The translations under genes and the position numbers were made by a program. Shown here piece by piece: positions 22,127 through 37,528 of a stretch of DNA of 64,000 bases. Positions within the stretch are counted from its first letter, which is position 1; every line of letters begins with the position of its first letter. The DNA comes from Tabrizicola sp. (lineage in GTDB: Bacteria > Pseudomonadota > Alphaproteobacteria > Rhodobacterales > Rhodobacteraceae): positions 60,976-124,975 of the forward strand of contig NZ_JAEULO010000018.1 in NCBI RefSeq assembly GCF_016793705.1. The letters run 5' to 3'. The notes below the pieces were generated by a model that made no database searches, was not told the origin of the DNA, and was given only the letters and a program-made list of their open reading frames with translations.

Positions 22127-22151
22127 GGTCAGGCTCCATCGCTGGTGGAGG

Positions 22152-22206
22152 CCCCGGGGGCGCTTCGCCCCCCGGACCCCCAGAGGATACTTTCAGACAG
22201 AAAATG
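22152..22206 (-). repeat. stem-loop intergenic repeat, subtype B
   Basis: Read on the minus strand: head CATTTTCTGTCTG, core AAGTATCC, then GGGGGTCCGGGGGGCG and a GGGGGCG/CGCCCCC stem. The hutH stop codon (22195-22193) lies inside the head, so the last residues of HutH are encoded by the repeat. It lies between hutH and hutU in the direction of transcription. Confidence 0.75.
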
Positions 22207-23737
22207 CAGATAGGTCCGGCATCGGGATGCCGGTGGCTTGGGAGAGGGTGCCTGCCGCCACCAGCGCTGCGGCTTTCGCAAGGTCGGGGGCGAGATAGCG
22301 GTCGTCCTCCAGCGCGCGAACCTCGGTGCGCAGCGCGCGGACGGCGGCTTGCAGGGGGGCGGAGGTCTTCAGCGGTGCGCGGAACTCCACCCCTTGCGCG
22401 GCGCACATCGCCTCGACCCCGAGGATCACGTTCAGGTTCTTCACCATCCGGCGCAGGCGGCGCGCGCCGTGGGCGGCCATGCTGACATGGTCCTCCTGGT
22501 TGGCGGAGGTCGGAGTCGAGTCGATCACGGTCGGATGCGCCAGGTGCTTGTTTTCGCTCATCAAGGCGGCGGTGGTGACTTCGGCGATCATCAGGCCGGA
22601 GTTCAGGCCGGGCTTCGGCGTCAGGAAGGCGGGCAGGTCGAACGACAGCGTCGGGTCGACCATCAGCGCCACCCGCCGCTGGGCAATCGCGCCGATTTCG
22701 GCAAGCGCCATGGCGATCATGTCGGCGGCAAAGCCCACCGGCTCGGCATGGAAGTTGCCGCCACTGACGATCTGGCCGTCCGATAGCACCAGGGGGTTGT
22801 CGGTCGCGGCATTGGCTTCGGTCTGCAGGGTGCGCGCGGCCATGCGCAGCACGTCCATCGCGGCGCCCGTCACCTGCGGCTGGCAGCGGATGCAGTAGGG
22901 GTCTTGCACGCGGGTATCGCCTTCGCGGTGGCTTTCGCGGATTTCGCTGCCCGCCAGGAGGGCGCGCATGGTGGTGGCCGCGTCGATCTGCCCCGGCTGG
23001 CCGCGAAGCGCATGGATTTCCGCTTCCAGCGGCGCGGTGGAGCCCATGATGGCGTCGGTCGAGAGCGCCGAGATCACCAGCGCCTCGCGCGCGGCCTGCC
23101 AGCCCTGGAAGAGGCCGGCGAGCGCGTAGGCCGTGGAGAACTGGGTGCCGTTGATCAGCGCCAGCCCTTCTTTCGCTCCAAGGCGGATGGGTGAAATGCC
23201 TTTCATCGCAAGCGCTTCCGCGCCGGGCCTCACCTGACCGTCGACCGTGGCCTCGCCATGGCCGATCATCACGGCGGTCATGTGAGCCAGGGGCGCGAGG
23301 TCTCCGCTGGCGCCGACCGAGCCCTGGTCGGGGATCACCGGGGTGACACGGTGTTCCAGCATCGCCTCGATGCAGGCCACCACTTCGGGGCGCACGCCAG
23401 AGGCCCCGCGCCCGAGCGACAGAAGTTTCAGCACCATCATCAGCCGCGCCACGTCTTCCGGCATCGTCGCGCCCACGCCGCAGCAATGGCTGAGGATCAG
23501 GTTTTTCTGAAGCGTGGCAGTGTCTTCCGGCGCGATCTTGATGCTGGCCAGCTTGCCGAAGCCGGTGTTCACCCCGTAGACCGCCGTACCGCCATTCGCC
23601 GCTGCCGCGATGTGGCTTGCCGCCCGTTCGATGCCGGGACGGGCGCTGTCGGCCAGCCGGGCCGGCAGCTTGCCGCGGAAGATGCGCTCAAGCTGCGCCA
23701 GCGTGACCTGGCCGGGGATCAGGATTTCAGGCGTCAA
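22193..23737 (-). CDS. hutH: HutH, histidine ammonia-lyase
   Basis: The 514-residue enzyme eliminates ammonia from L-histidine to give urocanate. The self-forming MIO electrophile comes from Ala143-Ser144-Gly145 in [11 protein letters not shown]. The active-site tyrosine lies in VYGVNTGFG near the N-terminus. I place the start at TTG 23737 because [13 protein letters not shown] aligns with family starts; the in-frame sequence before it is the shadow of hutI, whose stop lies 11 nt inside. No ATG is available near this point. The final codons run into a stem-loop repeat. Confidence 0.95.
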
Positions 23738-24920
23738 GACGGCCTCCGAAGATGCGTTTGGAAAGTGGCGTTGCGCCGATGCGGTAGGCGAGTTCCGCCG
23801 GGTGGTCGGCGTCCCAGATGCAGAGATCGGCCCGCAGGCCCGGCACGATGCGGCCCCGGTTGGCAAGGCCGAGGGCCTTCGCCGCATGGGCGGTGGTGCC
23901 CAGCAGCGCTTCCTCCGGCGTCAGGCGGAAGAGGGTGCAAGCCATGTTCATCGCCAGCGTCAAGGAAGCCAGCGGCGAGGAGCCGGGGTTGAGGTCGGTC
24001 GCCACCGCCATCGGCACCCCTGCGGCGCGCAGGGCGGCGATCGGGGGCGCCTGCGTCTCGCGCAGGGTGTAGAACGCGCCCGGCAGGATCACGGCGACGG
24101 TGCCCGCCGCTTTCATCGCGGCGATCCCTTCGGGCGAAAGATATTCCAGATGGTCCGCCGACAACGCCCCGCGCTGCGCCGCGAAGGCGGCCCCACCCTG
24201 GTCGGTCAACTGCTCGGCATGGAGCTTCACCGGCAGGCCAAGCGCGCGGGCCTCGGCGAACAAAGGCGCCAGTTCCTCGACCGAGAAGGCGATGGTTTCG
24301 CAGAAGGCATCGACCGCATCGACCAGCCCCTCGGCATGGGCCGCCCGCAGCGAGGGGATCGCCACCTCGGCAATATAACCCTTTGCATTGCCCTTGAATT
24401 CCGGCGGGATGGCGTGGGCGGCAAGATGCGTCGTCTTCACTGTCACCGGGCATTCTTGCCCGATCCGGCGCGCGACGCGCAGCATCTTCAGCTCGTCCGC
24501 AACCGTCAGCCCATAGCCCGATTTCACCTCGATGGTCGTGGCACCCGAAGTGATCAGCTGGTCGACGCGGGGCAGGGCGCGCGCCAGCAGCTCCGCCTCC
24601 GAAGCCGCCCGCGTCGCCGTCACGGTCGAGAGAATCCCGCCCCCGGCGCGGGCGACCTCCTCATAGCTCGCCCCCTTCAGCCGCAGCTCGAACTCCACCG
24701 CCCGGTGGCCGCCGAAGACCGCATGGGTGTGGCAGTCGATCAGGCCGGGAGTGACAAGCCTGCCCGCGGCGTCATGCCCGGGAAGCGACCGATAGGCGGC
24801 AGGCAGGTCGGCCATCGGCCCCGCCCAGGCGATCCGCTCGCCCTCCAGCGCCACGGCAGCGTCGGGGATCAGGCCGTAGCCATTCGTCATCGTCGCAAGG
24901 GTGGCATGGGTCAGGAGCAT
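23727..24920 (-). CDS. hutI: HutI, imidazolonepropionase
   Basis: The 397-residue amidohydrolase-superfamily enzyme opens the imidazolone ring to N-formimino-L-glutamate. Metal and substrate residues are seen in [34 protein letters not shown] and [16 protein letters not shown]. Length is normal. First gene of the minus-strand hut unit; its stop overlaps the hutH TTG start. The palindrome at 24952-24965 lies about 30 nt upstream of its ATG and is the probable HutC operator. Confidence 0.97.
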
Positions 24921-24951
24921 CGGCTTGCCTTATGCGTGGTGTAATGGCTAA

Positions 24952-24965
24952 TATGTCTAGACATA
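24952..24965. promoter_or_regulatory. hut operator palindrome (probable HutC site)
   Basis: TATGTCTAGACATA is a perfect 14-bp palindrome in the 66-nt gap between divergent hutI and hutF. It resembles the AT-rich symmetric sites bound by GntR-family HutC, and hutC follows hutF. Its central position would let one regulator control both transcripts. Binding is inferred. Confidence 0.7.
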
Positions 24966-24986
24966 ATGCAAGTCAAGTGAGTCGCC

Positions 24987-26336
24987 ATGATCCTGCACGC
25001 CGAATCCGCTCTGCTGCCCGAGGGCTGGGCAAGCGACGTCCGTATCGTGATCGAGGACGGTCGCATTGCCTCGGTCAACCATGGCCACGCGCCCGAGGGG
25101 CTGGCCTACGGCTGTCTTGTCCCGGCACCGGTGAACCTGCACTCCCACACCTTCCAGCGGGCGATGGCCGGAATGACCGAGGCGCGAACCGCGGGGCAGG
25201 ACAGTTTCTGGACCTGGCGCGCGCTGATGTATCGCTTCCTCCAAAGGCTCTCGCCCGAGGATGTGCAGGCGATCGCGGCGCAAGCGATGGTGGAGATGGC
25301 GGAGAGCGGCTTCTCGGCGGTATGCGAGTTTCACTACCTGCACCACCCGGTCGGCGGTGGCACTTATGCCGATCCGGCGGAGATGTCGGCCCGGATCGCG
25401 GCGGCGGCGGGTGAGACCGGGCTGGGGCTGACCCATCTGCCGGTGATCTACGAACAGGGCGGAGTCGATGGTCGTGCGCTGGCCGGGGGGCAGTTGCGCT
25501 TCGGTTCCTCGCCCGAGGTCTATGCCGCCATCCTTGAAGGGGCGCGGGCGGCGTTGTCGGTTCTGCCCGACGCCGGGCTAGGCGTCGCACCGCATTCGCT
25601 GCGGGCGGTCAGCCGGGCGACGCTGGACAAGGTCGCGGGCATGGTGCCCGGCGGGCCGGTGCACATCCACATCGCCGAGCAGGTCGCCGAAGTGACTGAA
25701 GTCCAGGCCGCCTGGGGCGCGCGTCCCGTCGACTGGGCGCTGGCAAACCTGCCCCTCGACGCGCGCTGGTGCATGATCCACGCCACTCAGATGACCTCCT
25801 CCGAAACCGCCGCGCTGGCGAGGACCGGGGCCGTCGCGGGCCTCTGCCCGATCACCGAGGCGAACCTCGGCGATGGCATTTTCGACGGCCCCGGCTGGAT
25901 GGCGGCGGACGGCGCCTTCGGGGTCGGGACGGACAGCAACGTCCGCATCTCGCTGGCCGAGGAGTTGCGGCTGCTGGAGTATTCCCAGCGCCTCAACCAC
26001 AAGGCGCGGGCTGTCATGGCCGACGCCCGGTCTACCGGGCGCTTCCTGTGGGAGCGGGCGCTGAAGGGCGGCGCGCAGGCGGCGGGGCGGACCAGTGGCC
26101 GCATCGAGGTCGGGCAATGGGCTGACCTTGTTGCGCTCGATACCGGCGATCTGCGGCTGGAGGGGGTTCAGGGAGACCAGCTGCTTGACGCCTTCCTCTT
26201 CGCCGGGCGCGACGGCCTTGTGACCGACCTCTGGTCCGCCGGGCGCCACATCGTCCGCGAGGGCCGCCACATCGCCCGAGACGCCGTGGAGGCCCGCTTC
26301 CGCGCCACCATGCGCCGCCTGCGCGAGGCGCTGTGA
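24987..26336 (+). CDS. hutF: HutF, N-formimino-L-glutamate deiminase
   Basis: The 449-residue amidohydrolase-superfamily enzyme removes ammonia from N-formimino-L-glutamate to give N-formyl-L-glutamate. It defines the five-step histidine pathway used by Pseudomonas and many alphaproteobacteria. Metal ligands appear in VNLHSHTFQRAMAG, HIHIAEQ and GVGTDSNVRIS, and the ending ARFRATMRRLREAL is typical. The next enzyme, HutG (N-formylglutamate amidohydrolase), is not in the window. The stop overlaps the hutC start as GTGA. Confidence 0.95.
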   Translation: MILHAESALLPEGWASDVRIVIEDGRIASVNHGHAPEGLAYGCLVPAPVNLHSHTFQRAMAGMTEARTAGQDSFWTWRALMYRFLQRLSPEDVQAIAAQAMVEMAESGFSAVCEFHYLHHPVGGGTYADPAEMSARIAAAAGETGLGLTHLPVIYEQGGVDGRALAGGQLRFGSSPEVYAAILEGARAALSVLPDAGLGVAPHSLRAVSRATLDKVAGMVPGGPVHIHIAEQVAEVTEVQAAWGARPVDWALANLPLDARWCMIHATQMTSSETAALARTGAVAGLCPITEANLGDGIFDGPGWMAADGAFGVGTDSNVRISLAEELRLLEYSQRLNHKARAVMADARSTGRFLWERALKGGAQAAGRTSGRIEVGQWADLVALDTGDLRLEGVQGDQLLDAFLFAGRDGLVTDLWSAGRHIVREGRHIARDAVEARFRATMRRLREAL

Positions 26337-27019
26337 CACTGGGCTGGGAGGACATCCGCGCCGAAGTGCTGCGCCGCATCCGGGCGCGCGACTGGCCTCC
26401 CGGTGCGCTGATCCCGGGCGAGGAGGCGCTGGCCGAGGAATTCGGCGTGGCCCGCGCCACGGTGAACCGCGCCCTGCGCGACCTTGCCGAGGCCGGGGTG
26501 ATCGAGCGCAAGAAGCGGGCCGGGACGCGGGTCGCCGAGCTGCCGGTCAGGCGGGCACGGCTGGAGATCCCGGTGATCCGGCTGGATGTACTGGGCCGCG
26601 GGCTGACCTATGACTTCAAGCTTCTGGCCGACCGTCTGACCCCTGCGCCGGTGCCGGTGACGGCCAGGCTTGGTCTGCCCGAGGGCACCCAGATGCGCTG
26701 CCTTGAAACGCTGCATCTGGCGGGCGGCAGGCCATATGTTCTGGAAAGCCGCTGGCTGAATCCCGCCGCGCTTCCCGTACCGACGCCCGATTTCGCCAGG
26801 GTCAGCGCGAATGAGTGGCTGGTGACGCATGTCAGCCTCGTCTCTGGCGATATCGCCTTCACCGCCGAACCGGCCGGCGCGCGCGAGGCGGACGTGCTGG
26901 GCGTAGCCCCCGGCACGGCGCTTCTGGTGGCGGAACGGACGACCCATGGCACCGCCGGGCCGGTGACGCTGGTGCGGCTCGCCCATGCGCCGGGGCATCG
27001 GGTGCAGATGACGTTCTAG
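26333..27019 (+). CDS. hutC: HutC, GntR-family repressor of histidine utilisation
   Basis: A 228-residue protein with an N-terminal GntR winged helix (EEALAEEFGVARATVNRALRDLAEAGVIERKKRAGTRV, residues about 30-67, split here only for description) and a C-terminal UTRA effector domain (ETLHLAGGRPYVLESRWLN). HutC proteins release DNA on binding urocanate. GTG 26333 is the start, coupled to the hutF stop. It should act at 24952-24965. Confidence 0.92.
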   Translation: MTLGWEDIRAEVLRRIRARDWPPGALIPGEEALAEEFGVARATVNRALRDLAEAGVIERKKRAGTRVAELPVRRARLEIPVIRLDVLGRGLTYDFKLLADRLTPAPVPVTARLGLPEGTQMRCLETLHLAGGRPYVLESRWLNPAALPVPTPDFARVSANEWLVTHVSLVSGDIAFTAEPAGAREADVLGVAPGTALLVAERTTHGTAGPVTLVRLAHAPGHRVQMTF

Positions 27020-27033
27020 CGGGGGGCAGCGCT

Positions 27034-27879
27034 TCAGCCGAAGTTCCGCGCGACCAGTTGCGTCAGCCTGCGGTGCAGGGGCAGGGTCCGGTGCCGGATG
27101 TGGATCGCCGCAAAGACCGGCTGGCGCAGGTCCGGCGCATCCTCCACCGCCATGAAGCGGCCCCCCGCCACAAGATCGGCGGCGGTCTTTTCCAGCACAT
27201 AGCCCGACCCGCCCATCGCCGTCAGCAGCGACACGACGGAACCCGACTGCCCGACCGAAACCGCCGCCGTGGCAAGGTCCGGCGTCAGCTGGCGATGCAT
27301 CTCCTCGAAGGCGGGAGAAAAATGCGCGAACACGAAGCGGGCGGGCGTGACTTCGGCCAGTCTCGCGGTCTCGGTCGAGATCATGCGGTAGGTCACGTCG
27401 CCCACGCTTTCGAAATGCAGGTCGGGGTGGGGCTTGGGGCTGAACATCACCGCGAAGTCGAGGATCCCTGTCAGAAGGTCGGCGCACATCTGGTTGGAAT
27501 AATCCGGCTCGATGTAGAAGGCGGTCTCGGGCAGGACCGCACGGAACCGCGCCACCCAGTCGCCCAGATAGACCGCCGCAAGGTCGTTCTGGATGCCAAG
27601 CCGCATCAGCTGCGAGGCGCCTTGCGGGATCTGGATGCGACGCCGCGCCTCGTTCCATTCGTGGCGCAGGGCGCGGGCATGGGGCTCGAACCGCTTGCCC
27701 TCGGGCGTGAGGTCGGTCCCGGCGCGCGAGCGGTCGAAGAGCCTTGACCCGACGGCCTGTTCCAGGGCGGTCACGCGGGCAGAGACGGTGGACTGGGTGA
27801 TCCGAAGCCGCTCCGCCGTGCGGTGGAAGCTGCGGGTTTCCGCCAGGTCAAGGAAGGTTTCGAGAAGGTCGATCTGCAT
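27034..27879 (-). CDS. LysR-family regulator of the adjacent amine-type cluster
   Basis: A 281-residue LysR-type regulator. The N-terminal helix-turn-helix is SFHRTAERLRITQSTVSARV and the rest is an effector-binding domain. ATG 27879 (MQIDLLETFLDLAE) was preferred to the in-frame GTG 27894 because it is the standard LysR start. It is divergent from the six-gene plus-strand cluster that begins at 28058, and the 178-nt gap holds a stem-loop repeat and a TGATCGA/TCGATCA inverted repeat. Control of that cluster is the natural inference; the inducer is unknown. Confidence 0.85.
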   Translation of the reverse strand: MQIDLLETFLDLAETRSFHRTAERLRITQSTVSARVTALEQAVGSRLFDRSRAGTDLTPEGKRFEPHARALRHEWNEARRRIQIPQGASQLMRLGIQNDLAAVYLGDWVARFRAVLPETAFYIEPDYSNQMCADLLTGILDFAVMFSPKPHPDLHFESVGDVTYRMISTETARLAEVTPARFVFAHFSPAFEEMHRQLTPDLATAAVSVGQSGSVVSLLTAMGGSGYVLEKTAADLVAGGRFMAVEDAPDLRQPVFAAIHIRHRTLPLHRRLTQLVARNFG

Positions 27880-27907
27880 TGCGGGCCGTGACACCTGGTG
27901 GTGAGTG

Positions 27908-27960
27908 CCGGGGGTTTCACACCCCCGGACCCCCGTGGGATATTTGGAGACAGAAAATGG
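27908..27960 (-). repeat. stem-loop intergenic repeat, subtype B
   Basis: Minus-strand reading: head CCATTTTCTGTCTCC, core AAATATCCCAC, GGGGGTCCGGGGG, then stem GGGGGT/ACCCCC region closed around GTGTGAA. It lies in the divergent promoter region between the LysR gene and the first dehydrogenase gene. Near-identical in layout to the copy at 57478-57534. Confidence 0.75.
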
Positions 27961-27965
27961 TCTCC

Positions 27966-27984
27966 TGATCGAGTTTGTCGATCA
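27966..27984. promoter_or_regulatory. inverted repeat, candidate LysR-type operator
   Basis: TGATCGA-GTTTG-TCGATCA has perfect 7-bp arms and a 5-nt spacer. It lies in the gap between the divergent LysR gene and the FAD-dehydrogenase gene, just past the repeat. Position and symmetry suit a LysR recognition site. Assignment is inferred from context only. Confidence 0.5.
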
Positions 27985-28057
27985 ATAGCCCGGTTCCGCC
28001 CGAATTGAAAGCGGGCGCGTGGCGGCGGATAGTGTCGCAAGGTTCGGGAGGGCGGTC

Positions 28058-30484
28058 ATGGCGGAATTTGCGCAAGCGCGGGTGGTGATCATCGGCGGCG
28101 GGGCGGTGGGGGCCTCGGCGCTTTACCATCTGGCGAAGGCCGGTTGGACCGATGCGCTGCTGCTGGAGAAGAATGAGCTGACAGCGGGGTCCACCTGGCA
28201 CGCGGCGGGCAACGTGCCGACGTTTTCCGCCAGCTGGTCGATCATGAACATGCAGCGCTATTCGGCCAGCCTTTACCGGGGGCTTGGCGAGGCGGTGGAC
28301 TATCCGATGAACTACCATGTCACCGGCTCGGTGCGGCTGGGCCATAGCCGCGAGCGGTTGCAGGAATTCAAGCGCGTCGTCGGCATGGGCCGCTATCAGG
28401 GGATGGACCTGACGATCCTCGGCCCGGGCGAGATCCGCTCGAAATATCCCTTCCTGGAAACCCACGACCTGACCGGCGCGCTTTACGATCCCTATGACGG
28501 CGACATCGACCCCGCGCAGCTGACGCAGGCCTTGGCCGCCGGGGCGCGCAAGCTCGGCGCGCGGATCGAACGCTTCTGCCCGGTGACGGCGGCGCGCTGG
28601 ACCGGCTCGGAATGGGTGCTGACGACCCCGAAGGGCGAGGTCCGGGCCGAATATGTGGTGAACGCCGGCGGCTACTATGCCGCCCATGTCGGCGCGATGT
28701 TCGGGCGCCGCGTCCCGATGATGGTGATGAGCCACCAGTACATGCTGTTCGACACCATCCCCGAGCTGGAGGCCTGGTCGAAGGAGGTTGGCCACAAGCT
28801 GCCGCTCCTGCGCGACGTGGACTCCTCCTACTATCTCCGGCAGGAGAAGATGGGCTTCAACCTCGGCCCCTACGAGAACCCCTGCCGCGCGCATTGGGCC
28901 ACGCCCGACGACCCGATGCCGGAAGACTTCAGCTTCCAGCTGTTCCCCGACGACCTCGAGCGGCTGGAGTGGCACATCAACGACGCGATGGCGCGGGTGC
29001 CCTTGCTGGCACAGGCCAACCTGACCAAGGTGATCAACGGCCCGATCCCCTATACCCCCGACGGCAACCCGCTGATCGGCCCGATGCCCGGCGTGCCGAA
29101 CGCCTTCGAGGCCTGCGTCTTCACCTTCGGCATCTGCCAGGCGGGCGGCGCGGGCAAGGTGCTGGCGGAATGGGTGACCGAAGGCGGCACCGAATGGGAT
29201 ATGTGGTCCTGCGACCCCCGGCGATTCACGGGGTGGGAGGATCACGACTATCTTGTCGCCAAGGGCAAGGAGGTCTACGGCCACGAATACGGCATGCATT
29301 TCCCGATGGCCCGCTGGCCCGCCGCGCCCGACCGCAAGCTTTCGCCAGTGCATGACAAACTGAAGGCTCTCGGCGCGCAGTTCGCCCCCTACAACGGTTG
29401 GGAGCGCGCGGAATGGTTCGCCGCCACCGGCGACGACACCTCCTGGGAGGAGACCCAGACCTGGGGCCGCAGCGGTCCCTGGGAGAAGCGGATCAAGGCC
29501 GAATGCGAAGCGGTGCGTGACGGGGTGGGGGTGCTGGATCTGCCGGGTTTCACCCGCCTGCGGCTCGCAGGGCCGGGCGCGCGAGCGCATCTCGCCAGCC
29601 TCACCGCCTCGAAACTGCCGCAGCCGGGGCGCACGGGACTGCTGTATTTCGCCGACGACCGCGGCCGCATCGTCACCGAGATGACCTGCCTGCCGTTCTC
29701 CGACGAAGACGTGGGCGTGATCACCGCTGCGGTCGCGCAGTCCCACGACGCCGACATCCTGCGCAAGGGCCTGCCGGAAGGTGTCACGCTGGAAGACTGG
29801 ACCGACAGGATCCACTGCTTCATCGTCACCGGCCCCAAGGCGCGCGACCTGCTCGCCGGGATCGCCGAGGCCGACCTGACACTGCCCTGGCTCTCGGTGC
29901 AGTATTTCGCCAAGGTCGCGGGCAGGGACGTGGCGCTGGTCCGCGTCTCCTTCGCGGGGGAACTCGGCTGGGAAATCCACTGCGACCGGGACGATGCGGC
30001 GCAGATCTATGACGCGCTGCTGGCTGCGGGCGCCAAGCCCTTCGGCATGAAGGCGCTGAACGCGCTCCGCATCGAAAAGGGCTACCGGGCGTGGAAGGGC
30101 GATCTCTCGACCGACTATTCCCTCCTGGAAGGCGGGCTGGAGCGCTTCATCGACTGGGGCCACGACTTTCCCGGCAAGGCCGCGCTCGCCGCCGAGAAGC
30201 AGCGCGGCGTGAGGAAGCGCTTCGTCTCGCTGAAGGTGGAGGCAAGGGACTGCGACGCGCCCTATATGTCGACCCTCTGGCAGGATGGACAGGTGGTGGG
30301 TGAAACCACCTCGGGCGCCTGGGGCTATCGGGTCGGGCATTCGCTGGCGCTGGGGATGCTGCGGGCCGACCTGGCGGTGCCGGGGACCGAGGTCGAGGTG
30401 GAAATCTTCGGCGACCGGGTGAAGGCCGTGGTCCTGCCGGACGGCCCGGCCTGGGACGCGAAGAACGAGCGGATTCGCGCGTGA
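28058..30484 (+). CDS. FAD-dependent dehydrogenase with GcvT domain (dimethylglycine/sarcosine dehydrogenase-like), copy 1
   Basis: An 808-residue two-domain protein. The N-terminal FAD-binding domain has VVIIGGGAVGASALYHL and the GSTWHAAG motif, whose His carries covalent FAD in dimethylglycine dehydrogenases. The C-terminal GcvT/aminomethyltransferase domain (from about residue 480; SFAGELGWEIHCD, LRIEKGYRAWKGDLS) normally passes the one-carbon unit to tetrahydrofolate. The family N-demethylates dimethylglycine, sarcosine or related amines. ATG 28058 follows GGGAGGG. It leads a six-gene plus-strand cluster. Which methylamine it uses cannot be read from sequence. Confidence 0.88.
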   Translation: MAEFAQARVVIIGGGAVGASALYHLAKAGWTDALLLEKNELTAGSTWHAAGNVPTFSASWSIMNMQRYSASLYRGLGEAVDYPMNYHVTGSVRLGHSRERLQEFKRVVGMGRYQGMDLTILGPGEIRSKYPFLETHDLTGALYDPYDGDIDPAQLTQALAAGARKLGARIERFCPVTAARWTGSEWVLTTPKGEVRAEYVVNAGGYYAAHVGAMFGRRVPMMVMSHQYMLFDTIPELEAWSKEVGHKLPLLRDVDSSYYLRQEKMGFNLGPYENPCRAHWATPDDPMPEDFSFQLFPDDLERLEWHINDAMARVPLLAQANLTKVINGPIPYTPDGNPLIGPMPGVPNAFEACVFTFGICQAGGAGKVLAEWVTEGGTEWDMWSCDPRRFTGWEDHDYLVAKGKEVYGHEYGMHFPMARWPAAPDRKLSPVHDKLKALGAQFAPYNGWERAEWFAATGDDTSWEETQTWGRSGPWEKRIKAECEAVRDGVGVLDLPGFTRLRLAGPGARAHLASLTASKLPQPGRTGLLYFADDRGRIVTEMTCLPFSDEDVGVITAAVAQSHDADILRKGLPEGVTLEDWTDRIHCFIVTGPKARDLLAGIAEADLTLPWLSVQYFAKVAGRDVALVRVSFAGELGWEIHCDRDDAAQIYDALLAAGAKPFGMKALNALRIEKGYRAWKGDLSTDYSLLEGGLERFIDWGHDFPGKAALAAEKQRGVRKRFVSLKVEARDCDAPYMSTLWQDGQVVGETTSGAWGYRVGHSLALGMLRADLAVPGTEVEVEIFGDRVKAVVLPDGPAWDAKNERIRA

Positions 30485-30495
30485 CGGCGGGCGGA

Positions 30496-30544
30496 CCGGG
30501 GGCCAGCCCCCGGACCCCCGGGATATTTGGACCAGTATGAAAGA
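30496..30544 (-). repeat. stem-loop intergenic repeat, hybrid subtype
   Basis: Minus-strand reading: head CTTTCATACTGGTCC (as in subtype A), core AAATATCCC, then GGGGGTCCGGGGGC and a perfect CCGGGGGC/GCCCCCGG stem (as in subtype B). It combines modules of both subtypes and sits between the two dehydrogenase genes, opposite to their transcription. Confidence 0.75.
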
Positions 30545-30552
30545 CCAGAGTG

Positions 30553-32994
30553 ATGGCTGAGGTTCCGACGAAAGCGCGGGCGGTGGTGATCGGGGGCGGG
30601 GTCTCGGGCTGTTCGGTGGCCTATCACCTCGCCAAGGCGGGCTGGACCGATGTGGTTCTCCTGGAGCGGCGCAAGCTGACCTCCGGCACGACCTGGCATG
30701 CTGCGGGGCTGATTGGCCAGCTGCGTGGGTCGGCGAACATGACCCGGCTCGCCAAGTATTCAGCCGATCTCTATCGCGGGCTGGAGGCCGAGACCGGCGT
30801 CGCCACCGGCATGAAGCAGGTCGGCTCGATCTCGGTCGCGCTGACCAGAGAGCGGCACGAGGAACTGCTGCGGCAGGCGACCGTCGCGCGGATCTTCGAC
30901 GTGGAGGTGCATGAGATTTCACCCGCCGAGGCCAAGGCGAAATATCCCCACCTGAACATCGACGGCGTGGTCGGTGCTGTGGCGCTGCCGCTCGACGGCC
31001 AATGCGACCCCGCCAATATCGCGATGGCCTTGGCCAAGGGCGCGCGGATGCGGGGGGCGAAGATCTTCGAGGGCGCTCTGGTGACGAAGGTCACGACCGC
31101 CGGGGGCCGCGTCACCGGCGTCGACTATGAAACAGACGCGGGTCCGGGGCATATCGAGGCCGATGTGATCGTCAACTGCGGCGGGATGTGGGGCAGGGAC
31201 CTTGCGCTCCAGAACGGCGTCACGCTGCCGCTTCATGCCTGCGAGCATTTCTACCTGATCACCGAACCCGTCGCCGGGCTGGACCCGAATACCCCCGTCC
31301 TCCGCGTGCCGGACGAATGTGCCTATTACAAGCAGGACGCCGGGAAGATGATGCTCGGCGCCTTCGAGCCGAAGGCGAAACCCTGGGGCATGGAGGGCAT
31401 CCGCAAGGACTTCGAGTTCGACACCCTGCCCGAGGACTGGGATCATTTCATGCCCATCCTGGAACATGCGATGCACCGGATGCCGCTCTTCCAGACCGCG
31501 GGCATTCACACCTTCTTCAACGGACCGGAAAGCTTCACCCCCGACGACCGCTACTACCTGGGCGAGGCGCCCGAGGTGAAGGGCTACTGGATCGCCGCCG
31601 GATACAATTCCATCGGCATCGTCTCGTCTGGCGGCGCGGGGCAGGCGCTGGCGCACTGGATCACCGAAGGCGAGCCGCCCTTCGACCTCTGGGAAGTCGA
31701 CATCCGCCGCGCGCAGCCGTTCCAGAAGAACCGCAAGTATCTGAAAGAGCGGGTGTCGGAGACGCTGGGCCTTCTCTACGCCGACCACTTCCCCTACCGG
31801 CAGGTCGTCACCTCTCGCGGCGTCCGGCGCAGCCCGATCCATGATCACCTTGCCGCCCGTGGCGCGGTCTTCGGCGAGGTCGCCGGTTGGGAGCGCGCGA
31901 ACTGGTTCGCGAACGAAGGGCAGGAGCGGGAGTATCGCTATTCCTGGAAACGGCAGAACTGGTTCGACAACAGCCGCGCCGAACACATGGCGGTCCGCGA
32001 GGCGGCAGGTCTGTTCGACATGACCTCGTTCGGCAAGATCAGGATCGAGGGCCGGGATGCCTGCGCATTCCTGAACCGCATCTCCTCGGCGCAGATGGAT
32101 CTGGCCGAAGGGCGGATTGTCTATACCATGTTCCTCAATGAAAATGGGGGGATAGAGGCCGATCTTACCGTGGCGCGCCTTGGCGAGACTGCCTTCCTTG
32201 CTGTCGTCCCCGGCGCCACCCTGCAACGCAACCTCGCCTGGATGCGGGCCAATGTCGGCGACGACTTCGCGGTGATCACCGATGTCACTGCTGCCGAGTC
32301 GGTCCTCTGCCTGATGGGTCCGCAGTCCCGTGACGTGCTGGCCAAGGTTTCGCCCAACGACTTCAGCAACACCGCGCACCCCTTTGGTAAAGCAAAGGAA
32401 ATCGAGATCGGTATGGGCCTCGCCCGCGCCCATCGCGTGACCTATGTCGGCGAGTTGGGCTGGGAGCTGTATATACCGACCGACCAGACCGCCCATGTCT
32501 TCGAGGCAATCATGGAGGCCGCTCCCGACCTCAAGCTCTGCGGCCTCCACACGCTCGACAGCTGCCGGATCGAGAAGGCCTACCGCCACTGGGGCCATGA
32601 CATCACCGATGAGGATCACGTCCTGGACGCGGGCCTCGGCTTCACCGTCAGCCGCAAGAAACCTGCCTTCATCGGGCGCGAGGCGGTGCTCCGCCGCGAA
32701 CAGCAGGGCCTCGACCGCAAGCTGCTGCAATTCCGCCTCAAGGACCCCGAGCCGCTGCTCTTCCACAACGAAGCCATTGTCCGCGATGGCAAAATCGTCG
32801 GCCCCGTCACCTCCGGCGCCTATGGCCACCACCTCGGCGGGGCCATCGGCATGGGCTATGTCCCTGCCAAAGGCCAGAGCGATGAAGAGATCCTGTCGTC
32901 CACTTACGAAGTCGAAGTCGCGGGCCAGCGGCATGAGGCCATCGCCAGCCTCGCCCCGATGTACGACCCGAAATCCGAAAGGATCCGCGCATGA
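30553..32994 (+). CDS. FAD-dependent dehydrogenase with GcvT domain, copy 2
   Basis: An 813-residue paralog of the preceding gene with the same architecture: FAD motif VVIGGGVSGCSVAYHLAKAG, covalent-flavin motif GTTWHAAGLIG, and a GcvT domain ending around TSGAYGHHLGGAIGMGYV. The two copies differ clearly, for example in the loop after the WHAAG motif, so they probably act on successive substrates rather than being a recent duplication. ATG 30553 is used; the preceding GTG is in frame. It overlaps the next gene by 4 nt (ATGA). Confidence 0.88.
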   Translation: MAEVPTKARAVVIGGGVSGCSVAYHLAKAGWTDVVLLERRKLTSGTTWHAAGLIGQLRGSANMTRLAKYSADLYRGLEAETGVATGMKQVGSISVALTRERHEELLRQATVARIFDVEVHEISPAEAKAKYPHLNIDGVVGAVALPLDGQCDPANIAMALAKGARMRGAKIFEGALVTKVTTAGGRVTGVDYETDAGPGHIEADVIVNCGGMWGRDLALQNGVTLPLHACEHFYLITEPVAGLDPNTPVLRVPDECAYYKQDAGKMMLGAFEPKAKPWGMEGIRKDFEFDTLPEDWDHFMPILEHAMHRMPLFQTAGIHTFFNGPESFTPDDRYYLGEAPEVKGYWIAAGYNSIGIVSSGGAGQALAHWITEGEPPFDLWEVDIRRAQPFQKNRKYLKERVSETLGLLYADHFPYRQVVTSRGVRRSPIHDHLAARGAVFGEVAGWERANWFANEGQEREYRYSWKRQNWFDNSRAEHMAVREAAGLFDMTSFGKIRIEGRDACAFLNRISSAQMDLAEGRIVYTMFLNENGGIEADLTVARLGETAFLAVVPGATLQRNLAWMRANVGDDFAVITDVTAAESVLCLMGPQSRDVLAKVSPNDFSNTAHPFGKAKEIEIGMGLARAHRVTYVGELGWELYIPTDQTAHVFEAIMEAAPDLKLCGLHTLDSCRIEKAYRHWGHDITDEDHVLDAGLGFTVSRKKPAFIGREAVLRREQQGLDRKLLQFRLKDPEPLLFHNEAIVRDGKIVGPVTSGAYGHHLGGAIGMGYVPAKGQSDEEILSSTYEVEVAGQRHEAIASLAPMYDPKSERIRA

Positions 32995-33821
32995 GCCTGG
33001 CCGCGCGCCATCAGGCCTTTCACGACCTGCACCAGCAGGGCTGTTTCGTCATCCCGAACCCTTGGGACAGGGGCTCTGCACAGATGATGGCGGCGCTGGG
33101 GGCCAGGGCGCTGGCGACCAGTTCCGCCGCCCATGCCTTCACTCTCGGCCGCCCCGACCTCGGTGGCGTCACCCGCGACGAGGCGTTGGCCCATGCGCAG
33201 GACCTGATCGCCGCGACGCCGCTCCCCGTCTCCGGCGATTTCGAGAACGGCTTCGGCGACAGCCCCGAGGACGTGGCCGAAACCGTCCGCCTGTCGGCTG
33301 AGGTGGGCCTGTCCGGCATCAGCGTCGAGGATACGCAGATGATCCCCGGCAACGCGCCCTACGCCTTTGATCTGGCGGTGGAACGCATCAAGGCCGGGGC
33401 CGCCGCTGCCCGCGCGCTGGGGCGTCCCTTCATCTTCTGCGCCCGCGCTGACGGGGTGATGCACGGCACCTATGACCTGACCGAAGCCATCCGCCGATTG
33501 CAGGCTTTCGAGGCCGCCGGGGCGGATCTCCTCTACATCCCCGTGCCCCCCGGACCCGCCGAGTTGAAGCAGATCGTTGCCTCCGTGACCAAGCCGGTGA
33601 ACGCCCTCGCCGCCGGGCCGCTCAAACAGCTTACCGTCGCCGAACTCGCGACAATCGGCGTCCGCCGTATCTCCCTCGGCAGCCAGATCGCTCGCCTCAC
33701 CCATGCCGCGATCCGCGACAGCGTGACCGCCATGCTGAACCACGGCAGCTTTGCCCCCCTCGCCACCACCGCCAGTGGCGACGAGATCGACGCGCTTCTC
33801 CTGAAAGGAGCCTCCCAATGA
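32991..33821 (+). CDS. isocitrate lyase/PEP mutase superfamily enzyme
   Basis: A 276-residue TIM-barrel protein with the superfamily signature at SGDFENGFGDSPEDV (the DxExGxG-like metal loop) and SVEDTQMIPG. Family members cleave or form C-C or C-P bonds next to a carboxylate (methylisocitrate lyase, PEP phosphonomutase, oxaloacetate decarboxylase, carboxyvinyl-carboxyphosphonate synthase). The isocitrate-lyase KKCGH loop is absent, so it is not a classical isocitrate lyase. Coupled by ATGA overlaps to genes on both sides, which ties it to amine catabolism. Reaction unknown. Confidence 0.8.
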   Translation: MSLAARHQAFHDLHQQGCFVIPNPWDRGSAQMMAALGARALATSSAAHAFTLGRPDLGGVTRDEALAHAQDLIAATPLPVSGDFENGFGDSPEDVAETVRLSAEVGLSGISVEDTQMIPGNAPYAFDLAVERIKAGAAAARALGRPFIFCARADGVMHGTYDLTEAIRRLQAFEAAGADLLYIPVPPGPAELKQIVASVTKPVNALAAGPLKQLTVAELATIGVRRISLGSQIARLTHAAIRDSVTAMLNHGSFAPLATTASGDEIDALLLKGASQ

Positions 33822-35380
33822 CCGACATGCCCGACATCGGCGAGACCTGCGAACCCGCCCGCGCCCGCCGCAGCGGAGGCCGACAGGCTCGCGTGGCCTT
33901 GCGCGCCGCACCCCTCGCCGACGATGTGAAACCCGTCCGCGCGGGTCTGCCCGGCGGCCAGTACAAGCCCCTGACCGAGGCCGGAGTCCGGCAGATCCAT
34001 GCCGCAGCACTGGACGCGCTGGAACAGATCGGCCTGAGCCAGGCCCCACCCTCCGGCGTCAAGCTTCTGACCGAAGCGGGCGCGATCCAGGGCGACGACG
34101 GCCGCATCCGCTTTCCCCGCGCGCTGGTCGAGGACATGCTGGCCAAGGCTGCCCGCAACATCACGCTCCACGCCCGCGACCCGAAGCATGATCTGCACCT
34201 GACCGGGACCAACGTCCACTACGGCACCGCGGGCGCGGCGGTGCATATCGTCGACCCCATTACCCTCGACTACCGGGAGTCGACCGCGCAGGACCTCTAT
34301 GACGCGGCGCGTCTCGTCGACAATCTCGACAACATCCACTTCTACCAGCGCACGATGGTCTGCCGGGACGTCACCGACAACAAGGAGATGGACCTCAACA
34401 CGCTCTATGGCAGCCTTGCGGGCACCGTGAAACACGTCGGCACCTCGTTCTCCGACCCCTCCCACGTGGCCGATTGCTTCGAGATGCTGCACATGGTCGC
34501 CGGGGGCGAGGAGAAGTGGCTGGAACGCCCCTTCGTCTCGAACTCCAACTGCTTCGTCGTCCCGCCGATGAAGTTTGCCGAGGAGAGCTGCATCACGATG
34601 GAGGATTGCATCCGCCGCGGCATGCCGATGCTGCTTTTGTCGGCAGGGCAGGCCGGGGCCACCGCGCCCGCGCCGATCGCGCTGACCATCGTGCAGGCGG
34701 TCGCGGAATGTCTGGCGGGCGTGGTCTATGTCAACGCGATCAAGCCCGGTGCCCCGGCGATTTTCGGCACCTGGCCCTTCGTTTCCGATCTGAGAACAGG
34801 CGCCATGTCCGGGGGCAGCGCGGAACAGGCGCTCCTCACCGCGGGCTGCGCTCAGATGCACCGCTTCTACGACCTGCCGGGTGGCGCTGCGAGCGGCATC
34901 AGCGACTCGAAGCTCCCCGACATGCAGGCGGGATGGGAGCAGGGCATCACCAACGCCCTCGCCGGTCTCGCGGGGCTGAATATGTGCTACGAGGCAGTGG
35001 GGATGCATGCCTCGCTTCTCGGCTTCTGCCTGGAATCGCTGGTCCTCGGCGACGACCTCCTCGGCCAGGCCATGCGGTTGGTGCGCGGCATCGACGTGAC
35101 GCCCGACTCGACCTCCATCGAGGCGATGAAGGACGTCTGCCTCGGCGGCCCCGGCCACTATCTCGGCTCGGACCAGACCTTGAGGCTGATGCAGACCGAG
35201 TACATCTACCCCGCTGTCGGCAACCGCATGTCGCCGAAGGAGTGGAACGAGGCCGGGAAGCCGCTGCTCCTCGATACGGCCATCGCCCGGAAGAATTCAA
35301 TCCTCGCGAAAGCCGGCTGCCGCATTGAGCCGGAGATCGACGCAGCGATCCGCAAGCGGTTCAACATCCACTTCAGGTAG
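33818..35380 (+). CDS. MttB-family (non-pyrrolysine) trimethylamine/betaine methyltransferase-like protein
   Basis: A 520-residue member of the trimethylamine methyltransferase MttB superfamily (NVHYGTAGAAVHIVDP, SNSNCFVVPPMKFAEESC, LPGGAASGISDSKLPDMQAGWE). The methanogen enzyme needs a pyrrolysine read from an in-frame TAG. This gene has none and so belongs to the non-Pyl branch, whose studied members demethylate glycine betaine, proline betaine or carnitine through a corrinoid protein. No corrinoid-protein or corrinoid:folate methyltransferase gene is in the window. ATG 33818 follows AAAGGAG and overlaps the upstream stop. Confidence 0.88.
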   Translation: MTDMPDIGETCEPARARRSGGRQARVALRAAPLADDVKPVRAGLPGGQYKPLTEAGVRQIHAAALDALEQIGLSQAPPSGVKLLTEAGAIQGDDGRIRFPRALVEDMLAKAARNITLHARDPKHDLHLTGTNVHYGTAGAAVHIVDPITLDYRESTAQDLYDAARLVDNLDNIHFYQRTMVCRDVTDNKEMDLNTLYGSLAGTVKHVGTSFSDPSHVADCFEMLHMVAGGEEKWLERPFVSNSNCFVVPPMKFAEESCITMEDCIRRGMPMLLLSAGQAGATAPAPIALTIVQAVAECLAGVVYVNAIKPGAPAIFGTWPFVSDLRTGAMSGGSAEQALLTAGCAQMHRFYDLPGGAASGISDSKLPDMQAGWEQGITNALAGLAGLNMCYEAVGMHASLLGFCLESLVLGDDLLGQAMRLVRGIDVTPDSTSIEAMKDVCLGGPGHYLGSDQTLRLMQTEYIYPAVGNRMSPKEWNEAGKPLLLDTAIARKNSILAKAGCRIEPEIDAAIRKRFNIHFR

Positions 35381-35403
35381 CGCGCACAACGCTTGGAAAA
35401 GAA

Positions 35404-36309
35404 ATGCAAATGCACTACGGCTATATTGGTCTCGGCAACCTCGGCGGCCATCTTGCTGTCAGCCTTTTGCAGGCGGGACACCGCGTCACGGTCTATGACC
35501 GCAACCCGGCACTCGCCGAACGCCATGCCGCGCTGGGGGCCACCATCGCGCCCTCGGTCTCCGCGCTGGCAGAGCAGGTGGACCATGTCTTCACCTGCCT
35601 GCCGAACCCCGCCGTCTCCGAGGCGGTGCTGGCCGAACTGATGACCGGGCTGAAACCGGGCGCGACCTGGATCGAGAACTCCACCCTCGGCCGCGACGAC
35701 GTGCTGCGCCTCGCGGGCCTCGCGCGGATCGGGCAGGTGCGCCTCCTGGAGGCGCCGGTGACGGGCGGAGTCCACCTTGCCGCGCGGGGGGAGATCACCG
35801 TGCTTCTGGGCGGCGATCAGGACCTGGTGGACCTCCACCGCCCGGCGCTGTCGGTCATCGGCAAGCGGCTTTTCCACATGGGGCCGCTCGGCTCGGCGGC
35901 GATCATCAAGGTCATCACCAACATGCTGGCCTTCATCCACCTCAAGGCGACCTCCGAGGCGCTGATGCTGGCCAAGCGCGGCGGGCTGGACCTTGGGCAG
36001 GCCTGGCAGGCGATTGCTGCCAGTTCCGGAAACAGTTTCGTCCATGAAACCGAAGGCGCGCTGATCCTGAACGGCTCCTACGACATCGCCTTCAACATCG
36101 ACCTGGCGCTGAAGGACCTCGGGTTTGCGCTTGGCTTCGGCAAGGAATTCGGTGTGCCGCTGGACCTCGCCTCGATCACCAACCAGACCTATATCGCGGC
36201 CAGGGCGGCCTATGGCGGCGCCGCGCAATCGCCGATGATCGCGAAGCTGCTGGAAGATCTGCTGGGCACCGACCTGCGCGCCGAAGGCTTCCCGGCGCGG
36301 CTGGAGTGA
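35404..36309 (+). CDS. NAD(P)-dependent 3-hydroxyisobutyrate dehydrogenase-family protein
   Basis: A 301-residue beta-hydroxyacid dehydrogenase. The Rossmann motif is GYIGLGNLGGHLA near residue 5, the substrate-binding loop is EAPVTGGVHLAARG, and the catalytic lysine lies in GSAAIIKVITNML. The family oxidises small beta-hydroxy acids or reduces semialdehydes (3-hydroxyisobutyrate, tartronate semialdehyde). It starts 23 nt after the MttB-like gene, so it probably handles a product of that pathway. ATG 35410 is an alternative start. Confidence 0.85.
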   Translation: MQMHYGYIGLGNLGGHLAVSLLQAGHRVTVYDRNPALAERHAALGATIAPSVSALAEQVDHVFTCLPNPAVSEAVLAELMTGLKPGATWIENSTLGRDDVLRLAGLARIGQVRLLEAPVTGGVHLAARGEITVLLGGDQDLVDLHRPALSVIGKRLFHMGPLGSAAIIKVITNMLAFIHLKATSEALMLAKRGGLDLGQAWQAIAASSGNSFVHETEGALILNGSYDIAFNIDLALKDLGFALGFGKEFGVPLDLASITNQTYIAARAAYGGAAQSPMIAKLLEDLLGTDLRAEGFPARLE

Positions 36310-36392
36310 GCGCTTGAGGGCGCTCAGGACGCAGGTTAAGGTTCGGTAAACGCCCGCGGCCAAGTGCTTGATTTCGCTGCGGGTCCTCTTCT

Positions 36393-36407
36393 TGTCCACC
36401 GTGGACA
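36393..36407. promoter_or_regulatory. perfect palindrome upstream of the PLP enzyme gene
   Basis: TGTCCAC-C-GTGGACA is a perfect 15-bp odd palindrome, 15 nt upstream of the ATG at 36422, in a 112-nt gap. A GAGCGC/GCGCTC stem lies earlier in the same gap. Either an operator or a translation-controlling hairpin is possible; no regulator is assigned. Confidence 0.4.
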
Positions 36408-36421
36408 CCCTGGAGCCCGCC

Positions 36422-37528
36422 ATGACCGCCGACGCTGACGCCCGCATCGCCCGCCTCCTCCACCACCGCAAGGCGGGCCTCGCCCTGGGCGAGCCGGTCG
36501 TGCCCCCGATCTCGGTCGCGACCACCTTCCACCTGCCCGAGGCGCAGGGGGCCGCCCATTACTACGGCCGCTCCGGCCAGCCGACCTGGGACGCCGTCGA
36601 GGCGCAGCTGTCCATCCTGGAGGCCGCCGAGACGGTCGCCTTCCCCTCCGGCATGGCCGCGATCACGGCGGCGCTGGTCTGCAGCCTGAAGGCGGGGGCG
36701 AAGGTGATGCTCCCCGCCGACGGCTACTACGTCACCCGCCTCCTCGGCCGTGACCTGTTGCAGGTCTATGGGGTCGAGGTGGCGCGGGTCCCGACGGCGC
36801 AGATGGAGGTGGAGGACTTCACCGGCTTCGACGTGATCTACATCGAGACCCCCTCGAATCCCGGCCTCGACACGGTGGGCATCGCGACCCTCGCGCGGAA
36901 GGCCCATGCCGCCGGGGCGCTGCTGATCGCCGACAACACGACGATGACGCCGCTTCTCCAGCGCCCGCTGGACCTTGGCGCCGACCTGGTGGTCGCCGCC
37001 GACACCAAGGCCCCGGCGGGCCATTCCGACGCGCTTTTCGGCCATGTCGCCGGGCGGGACCCGAACCTGATGGCCCGCATCCGCGAATGGCGGCGGCAGT
37101 CGGGGTCGGTCCCGGGGCCGTTCGAGGCCTATCTCGTCCATCGCGGCCTGGAGACGCTGGAGGTCCGCCTGACCCGGATGTGCGCCTCGGCGACGGTGAT
37201 CGCCGGACGGCTGGCAGCCCATCCCAAGGTGCGGGGATTGCGCTATCCCGGCCTGCCGGGCGATCCATCGCACAGGTCGGTCGGAGGGCAGATGGCCAAC
37301 GGCGGCTTCCTGATCGGCTTCGAACTGGCGGATGAGGCAGCGGCGGAGGCCTTCCTCGCCCGCTGTCCGCTGATCGAGCAGGCCACCAGCTTCGGGGGCG
37401 TCCACACCGCTGCCGAACGCCGGTCGCGCTGGGGCGATGCGGTGGCTGAGGGGTTCATCCGGCTTTCGGTCGGGGTCGAGCCGGTGGAGACCCTGTGGTC
37501 CACCATCGAGGCGGCACTGGCGGCGTAG
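36422..37528 (+). CDS. Cys/Met-metabolism PLP-dependent enzyme (cystathionine gamma-lyase/synthase family)
   Basis: A 368-residue fold-type I PLP enzyme. The family pattern is present: YYGRSGQPTWDAVEAQL, SGMAAITAALVCSL, YIETPSNPGL, and the PLP lysine in AADTKAPAGHSD, where the common SxTKYxxGHSD has Ala-Pro in place of Tyr-x. The C-terminal region RLSVGVEPVETLW is standard. Whether it is a gamma-lyase, gamma-synthase or sulfhydrylase cannot be decided. ATG 36422 was chosen because the upstream in-frame extension covers a palindrome. It may belong to the preceding cluster or be independent, given the 112-nt gap. Confidence 0.82.
   Translation: MTADADARIARLLHHRKAGLALGEPVVPPISVATTFHLPEAQGAAHYYGRSGQPTWDAVEAQLSILEAAETVAFPSGMAAITAALVCSLKAGAKVMLPADGYYVTRLLGRDLLQVYGVEVARVPTAQMEVEDFTGFDVIYIETPSNPGLDTVGIATLARKAHAAGALLIADNTTMTPLLQRPLDLGADLVVAADTKAPAGHSDALFGHVAGRDPNLMARIREWRRQSGSVPGPFEAYLVHRGLETLEVRLTRMCASATVIAGRLAAHPKVRGLRYPGLPGDPSHRSVGGQMANGGFLIGFELADEAAAEAFLARCPLIEQATSFGGVHTAAERRSRWGDAVAEGFIRLSVGVEPVETLWSTIEAALAA

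Follow-up and report, generated by a model that had tools for sequence, protein, structure and literature searches.

Aerobic, cobalamin-dependent demethylation of glycine betaine by the MtgBCD proteins was described in 2025 for Ruegeria pomeroyi DSS-3 (PMC12478193; what is said of that system here and below follows the accessible parts of this paper). Both growth on glycine betaine and the synthesis of methionine depended there on MtgC (SPO2160) and MtgD (SPO1863). SPO2108 and SPO2134, both members of PF06253, were more abundant in cells grown on N-osmolytes, glycine betaine included. Genes for the later demethylations were often located near mtgBCD, and up to seven PF06253 open reading frames were counted per genome, possibly serving other methylated compounds (PMC12478193). 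The present work deals with a gene cluster built around another such protein in 64,000 nucleotides of DNA from Tabrizicola sp. (assembly GCF_016793705.1, contig NZ_JAEULO010000018.1, positions 60,976 to 124,975), a stretch called the window throughout, which belongs to a genome bin of 3.8 Mb in 73 contigs with a completeness of 94.5 and a contamination of 4.48. As far as the 2025 paper could be compared, the core of this cluster is a variant of the system described there, and its reading as a stepwise N-demethylation module, in which a corrinoid methyltransferase is combined with FAD/folate enzymes, is well supported by the sequence. The two have in common an MttB-superfamily methyltransferase, the shared split MtgC/MtgD pair and later demethylation genes that are often co-located, whereas in the window the MttB gene shares an operon with two FAD/GcvT genes and one for a hydroxyacid dehydrogenase, beside a divergent LysR gene.

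Gene order and conservation of the cluster

The features are lettered below, with coordinates of the window.

27034..27894, minus strand: R, LysR-type regulator, divergent from A (Pfam HTH_1 and LysR_substrate)
27916..28033, plus strand: two weak matches to sigma-70-like promoters between R and A (consensus scan)
28058..30484, plus strand: A, FAD (DAO) and GcvT folate-domain demethylase, dimethylglycine-dehydrogenase-like, 808 amino acids (Pfam)
30553..32994, plus strand: B, second FAD and GcvT demethylase, 813 amino acids (Pfam)
32991..33821, plus strand: C, phosphoenolpyruvate (PEP) mutase / isocitrate lyase superfamily, optional member, 276 amino acids (PF13714)
33818..35380, plus strand: D, MttB-superfamily (non-pyrrolysine) corrinoid methyltransferase, 520 amino acids (PF06253)
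34898..34997, plus strand: Rfam PYLIS_3 match inside D, 43.8 bits against a gathering score of 38
35404..36309, plus strand: E, beta-hydroxyacid dehydrogenase of the 3-hydroxyisobutyrate dehydrogenase (HIBADH) / threonate dehydrogenase superfamily, 301 amino acids (NAD_binding_2 and NAD_binding_11)
36422..37528, plus strand, from an ATG: F, cystathionine gamma-lyase family pyridoxal phosphate enzyme, optional member (Cys_Met_Meta_PP, NF005758)

An earlier model-made reading of the letters, with no database searches (the sequence-only reading), had proposed A to F as a six-gene cluster, and all six open reading frames are present on the plus strand with the domains it named (Pfam). The families here and below were judged by Pfam cut-offs, NCBIfam equivalog cut-offs and the Rfam gathering score. 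A and B, taken to be two diverged FAD/GcvT genes, share one domain architecture at 31% identity, and E does begin 23 nt after D. The chaining by ATGA overlaps holds for B-C and C-D but not for A-B, which lie 68 nt apart. E and F are separated by 112 nt, counted to the ATG at 36422, with an in-frame TTG further upstream at 36368. R and A diverge from an intergenic region of 163 bp, and the sigma-70-like consensus scan gave three sites in 10.9 kb against 0.8 expected, which is no evidence of function.

The neighbourhood recurs in relatives. Gene contents were counted by tblastn around the best 80 of at least 561 D matches in named genomes, a sample biased to close kin (the nearest named relatives of D come from Tabrizicola, Rhodobacter and Rhodobacteraceae); many of these loci are cut by contig ends, and 51 keep full 10-kb flanks. 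A simple gene caller chose antisense frames in a few loci (e.g., L041 and L048), and tblastn and blastp were used for the counts instead. Among the 51 full-flank loci, a LysR gene (at least 40% identity) was found in 50, E in 49, and A and B in 46 each, followed by an aldehyde dehydrogenase here called X (34), F (22), hut genes (21), an MDR alcohol dehydrogenase (11), a GMC dehydrogenase (8) and C (7). Over all 80 loci the counts were D 80, E 74, B 69, A 61, LysR 61, X 52, F 39, hut 24, MDR 18, C 10 and GMC 10. The conserved unit is a divergent LysR gene with A, B, D and E; the proposed six-gene unit was right as to recurrence and wrong as to its boundary, as the LysR gene belongs to it and C and F are optional. 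C was rejected as the defining enzyme because it is present in only 7 of the 51 loci, and the lyase, which had been taken as a pointer to the substrate, cannot define it.

At a larger distance, D was found in 239 of the 390 genomes of the order (E-value ≤ 1e-120) and in 37 of 380 genomes of the class outside it (E-value ≤ 1e-100). The stretch around the best D was examined in 25 of these 37, several stretches being short, and open reading frames were named by blastp: 20 of them hold A (two at 38%) and 13 hold B, and the A-B-D or A-D arrangement is retained in other orders. The LysR-A-B-D order stands on pSymB of Sinorhizobium meliloti Ak57 (A 74%, D 75%, with B matched in pieces), and Shinella sp. 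PSBB067 (L204) holds LysR-A-B-C-D, the order of the window. A conserved neighbourhood, which the sequence-only reading had made its test, is thus found both in close relatives and beyond them. Two side observations may be added here. Within 20 kb of genome G665 (L163) stand three MttB-like genes, and two of them (27-28% identical to D) flank an A-B-D run. A homocysteine-S-methyltransferase-family gene lies inside the cluster in L053 and L054 (by PF02574) and in L090 and L191 (by tblastn or blastp relatives).

Probable kinship with MtgBCD, and the two FAD/GcvT enzymes

D matches PF06253 (MTTB) with 364.5 bits against a cut-off of 25, over profile positions 1-489 of 500, and is the lowest-scoring of the seven PF06253 proteins of its genome (365 against 625-788 bits). 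Its assignment as a non-pyrrolysine MttB proved correct: Ile361 (codon ATC, 34898) aligns with the modified residue 334, the pyrrolysine of the MttB structure 7xcl, the frame is open without a TAG, and D falls below the equivalog cut-off of TIGR02369, the pyrrolysine-dependent trimethylamine methyltransferase (331 against 525 bits). A role as a pyrrolysine enzyme was rejected on the residue and the frame. The PYLIS_3 match begins exactly at the Ile361 codon, and, because D has no in-frame stop, this model appears to detect coding homology here rather than recoding. No substrate-pocket residues to test were given in the accessible parts of PMC9842639 or PMC8604678.

In a tree of 81 D rows, group 1 (30 rows, the window included) is the sister of group 2 (9 Rhodobacteraceae rows), and the D proteins of other orders fall outside. 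Group 2 mostly stands without A, B and E, with A beside D in one of its nine rows (L054), and a C homologue is nearby in L050, L054 and L057. Nor is every group 1 gene part of a cluster, as L046 lacks A, B and E; this locus is from genome G192, which carries both groups (L046 and L051). In genomes G249 and G120, presumably Ruegeria-like, the group 2 D gene lies about 27 kb from mtgC, and in G249 a 185-amino-acid outer membrane protein beta-barrel gene adjoins it, with trpC/trpD homologues between D and mtgC. In R. pomeroyi, SPO2133 is a 178-amino-acid outer membrane protein (PMC9938194) and SPO2150/2151 are trpD/trpC (PMC10041152), as given in the accessible parts of these papers. Because the outer membrane protein gene, trpC/trpD and the placement of mtgC agree with SPO2133, SPO2150/2151 and SPO2160, group 2 probably fits SPO2134, that is, MtgB2, and by tree and synteny the clade of D would be its sister.

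The remaining partners are encoded elsewhere in the window's genome, on contigs other than that of the cluster. One gene, next to a DUF1638 gene, codes for an MtgC-like protein with two B12-binding domains, and a search confined to this genome also gave an MtgD-like pterin-binding protein; a MetF2 reading of the gene beside mtgD was dropped, as it has no Pfam match at 0.001. MtgC (E-value ≤ 1e-60) is present in 354 of the same 390 genomes of the order, including all 239 that carry D, and D is present in none of the 36 MtgC-negative genomes, counts that come from related and not independent genomes, so that the Fisher value overstates independence. The sequence-only reading had known of no described pathway with its set of genes. 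This held only in part, since MtgBCD demethylation of glycine betaine was already in PMC12478193 and the sister clade of D is, by synteny, one of its two MtgB proteins. The oxidative partners are another matter: no published description of an MttB with such conserved partners was found among the matches listed, only PMC12478193 came close, and its accessible parts mention no E, C, F, X or GMC partner.

A and B each consist of DAO, FAO_M, GCV_T and GCV_T_C domains, the dimethylglycine/sarcosine dehydrogenase architecture (Pfam), and both align nearly full-length with mitochondrial dimethylglycine dehydrogenase (DMGDH) and N,N-dimethylglycine oxidase (PDB 5l46 and 1pj5). A scores 532-540 bits to the DMGDH chains and 296-298 to the oxidase, B 436-440 and 385-389, respectively, and the substrates of both remain putative. 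A WHAAG motif, which we take to be the site of the covalent-FAD histidine, lies at residue 47 of A and 48 of B. For B, only the place beside A and D suggests a sarcosine-dehydrogenase-like role.

The proposed demethylation route and its possible substrate

That an MttB protein and two FAD/GcvT enzymes take the methyl groups off a quaternary amine one after another, as the sequence-only reading had it, is the natural interpretation of the conserved neighbourhood. D would take the first methyl off the quaternary nitrogen and hand it to MtgC, the corrinoid protein encoded apart from the cluster, from which MtgD would transfer it to tetrahydrofolate; A would then take the second methyl as methylene-folate and B the third, leaving a primary amine. 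As the putative substrate of this module, which is presumably under the control of the LysR-type regulator, we put glycine betaine or a choline-like precursor first, with a probability of about 0.5. A choline-like precursor would be brought to glycine betaine by the GMC and aldehyde dehydrogenases that relatives encode, the end product would be glycine, and E, optionally with C and F, may handle a side intermediate.

A number of points weigh against glycine betaine. To our knowledge, E has no place in a glycine betaine pathway. The GMC and aldehyde dehydrogenase homologues of relatives, judged by the family models, lie well below the BetA and BetB cut-offs: X, which resembles betaine aldehyde dehydrogenase (BADH), scored 389-409 bits against a BADH cut-off of 669, and the choline-dehydrogenase-like GMC protein 392-462 bits against 732 for BetA, with three of each scanned. 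Both A and B are missing from 5 of the 25 loci outside the order. D aligns over 465 residues with its family member, the proven MtgB of Desulfitobacterium hafniense (PDB 2qne/9yce), at an identity of only 28.6%, and the host of that protein is an anaerobe (PMC12478193). No published biochemistry was found for the group of D, and an mtgB mutant is not reported in the accessible parts of PMC12478193.

A further point of this kind comes from a second betaine-type cluster in the same genome bin, on contig C64 (L142 1979-13877 and L216), which holds an MttB gene, a LysR gene, a class III aminotransferase, two FAD/GcvT genes and a proV-family ABC ATPase. One of its proteins, L151, is nearer DMGDH than A is (654-657 against 532-540 bits), and A therefore need not be a dimethylglycine enzyme, unless C64 is a contaminant. 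The C64 cluster could be the main betaine route of the strain, leaving the window cluster to act on another substrate; given the bin contamination of 4.5%, it could also be foreign DNA. An L151-like protein at 70% was present in 1 of 43 other genomes, and the rest reached at most 44% among the matches listed.

Two more MttB loci may be mentioned beside these. The megaplasmid of R. pomeroyi (L205, 6965-17261) carries a run of a LysR gene, an MttB gene, a class III aminotransferase, two FAD oxidoreductases and a thiamine pyrophosphate enzyme. Like the window cluster, it brings together a LysR gene, an MttB gene (its product 45% identical to D) and a pair of FAD genes that are homologues of A and B; it differs in its skeleton enzymes, which are the aminotransferase and the thiamine pyrophosphate enzyme. 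The best model for the latter was sulfoacetaldehyde acetyltransferase (401 against a cut-off of 620), and that the run serves taurine betaine is a guess. On contig C15 of the window's genome (L143 8760-12292), an MttB gene overlaps a gene of 674 amino acids, best matched by the mycofactocin FadH/old yellow enzyme (OYE)-family oxidoreductase model (356 against a cut-off of 793), possibly a further demethylation pair.

Oxidative partners and rival explanations

No equivalog model passed for C, E or X, and the family models thus named no substrate for them. C belongs to PEP_mutase (PF13714, 236.6 bits against 31.5), far below the equivalogs for PrpB (71.5 against 354) and PEP mutase (36 against 320), and its nearest solved relative, 4lsb, is named only 'lyase/mutase'. 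E, with 158 against 350 bits for threonate dehydrogenase and 139 against 292 for HIBADH, has 2-hydroxymethylglutarate dehydrogenase (3cky, 135 bits) as its best solved relative, and it carries K169-x3-N173 and a YDRN motif, in which the Asp presumably points to a preference for NAD. F matches Cys_Met_Meta_PP (259.4 bits against 27) and passes the equivalog for cystathionine gamma-lyase, NF005758 (504 against 440).

Since genes for alcohol, aldehyde and hydroxyacid dehydrogenases are repeatedly found next to the module, a larger hydroxylated betaine was kept as an option, and on this count the sequence-only reading, which had placed the substrate beyond glycine betaine, gained some support even as its lyase argument failed. 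The same three demethylation steps would then act on a hydroxylated quaternary ammonium compound, a tentative alternative that we rate below glycine betaine but well above all others. The GMC or MDR enzyme and the BADH-like aldehyde dehydrogenase would turn a primary alcohol into an acid, E would oxidise the hydroxy-acid group, D, A and B would strip the nitrogen, and an enolase-superfamily protein, C or F would finish the skeleton in some genomes. It is doubtful, though possible, that this amounts to an undescribed aerobic cobalamin-dependent pathway, in which E would act on a group of the type HO-CH2-CH(R)-COO- and the enolase-superfamily enzyme would cleave or dehydrate the acid in some genomes. 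The full-flank counts of E, X, MDR and GMC (49, 34, 11 and 8 of 51) are in its favour, as are the scores of GMC and X under the BetA and BetB cut-offs. Of the ten GMC genes in the 80 loci, seven follow E at a distance of 15-73 nt and one at 944 nt, and two lie upstream with an enolase-superfamily gene; a hydantoinase/oxoprolinase gene follows GMC in 6 of the 80 loci (PF05378 and PF01968 in L101), and L101 also has its MDR gene between A and B. In another order, L171 joins D-B-A-regulator-E-X, but it is the only one of the 13 A-B-D loci examined outside the order with E or X. This main support for the larger substrate is drawn from relatives: of the partners, the window holds just E, C and F, as no aldehyde, GMC or MDR dehydrogenase and no enolase-superfamily homologue was matched anywhere in it (E-value ≤ 1e-10).

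Plasmids give evidence on both sides. E homologues were found in 14 plasmid records, of which five were examined. Ensifer and Pseudooceanicola plasmids carry E with aldehyde dehydrogenase, GMC and enolase-superfamily genes, a Rhizobium plasmid carries E with an aldehyde dehydrogenase and GMC and enolase pieces that match only partly, and the SC52 plasmid has E, an aldehyde dehydrogenase, a choline dehydrogenase and a TmpA/gamma-butyrobetaine-dioxygenase-like gene. These sets speak for the larger substrate; the E region of Ruegeria THAF33 (41% identity) is without the aldehyde dehydrogenase and GMC, and an X relative in Rhizobium binae (62.5%) has neither E nor GMC next to it but genes for an ABC transporter, an aminotransferase and a deacetylase. 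The rise of the SPO2134 group on glycine betaine also counts against it, as far as PMC12478193 is accessible.

The deacylated head group of the algal betaine lipids DGTA or DGTS is a bold and very improbable candidate for such a substrate. DGTA and DGTS are glyceryl ethers of hydroxymethyl-trimethyl-beta-alanine and trimethylhomoserine, respectively. The DGTA head group would, we assume, have the 2-hydroxymethyl acid form used by 2-hydroxymethylglutarate dehydrogenase, the relative of E, and in the case of DGTS, F could act on homoserine; no pathway paper on betaine-lipid catabolism was found among the matches listed. Histidine betaine (hercynine) is also a far-fetched substrate, for all that the genes hutU, hutH, hutI, hutF and hutC (20453-27019, all over their NCBIfam cut-offs) directly precede the LysR gene in the window, ending 14 nt before this convergent gene, and could degrade the histidine that the module would make. 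At least one hut gene is present in 24 of the 80 loci (21 of the 51), with the block inverted in some (L100, L103 and L107), but the examined loci of other orders show a single hut-like match, a HAL-like gene (38%) in L168. A single ancestral placement that was later inverted would account for the adjacency, and hercynine would leave E, X and GMC without a role.

It is also improbable, though less so than hercynine, that there is no single pathway and that E (with X and GMC), C and F were separately recruited to the A-B-D unit for unrelated tasks. The low counts of C and F (7 and 22 of 51) would agree with this, as would E standing without an MttB gene in the examined stretches of all five plasmids, and the five full-flank loci (one Loktanella and four uncultured Rhodobacteraceae) that keep the LysR gene and D without A and B, four of them with E. 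Against it, E is beside D in 49 of the 51 loci, and the one plasmid match of C among 72,556 records (E-value ≤ 1e-60) lies directly before D.

Between algae and bacteria, betaines serve as important currencies of carbon and nitrogen, and the cluster links one widespread MttB clade to recurrent partners, which gives a short substrate list and a genetic handle. Should glycine betaine be the substrate, the cluster would represent, in Rhodobacter relatives, the new pathway arranged as an operon next to a LysR gene; should it be another compound, a widespread catabolic route for that methylated compound would have been missed.

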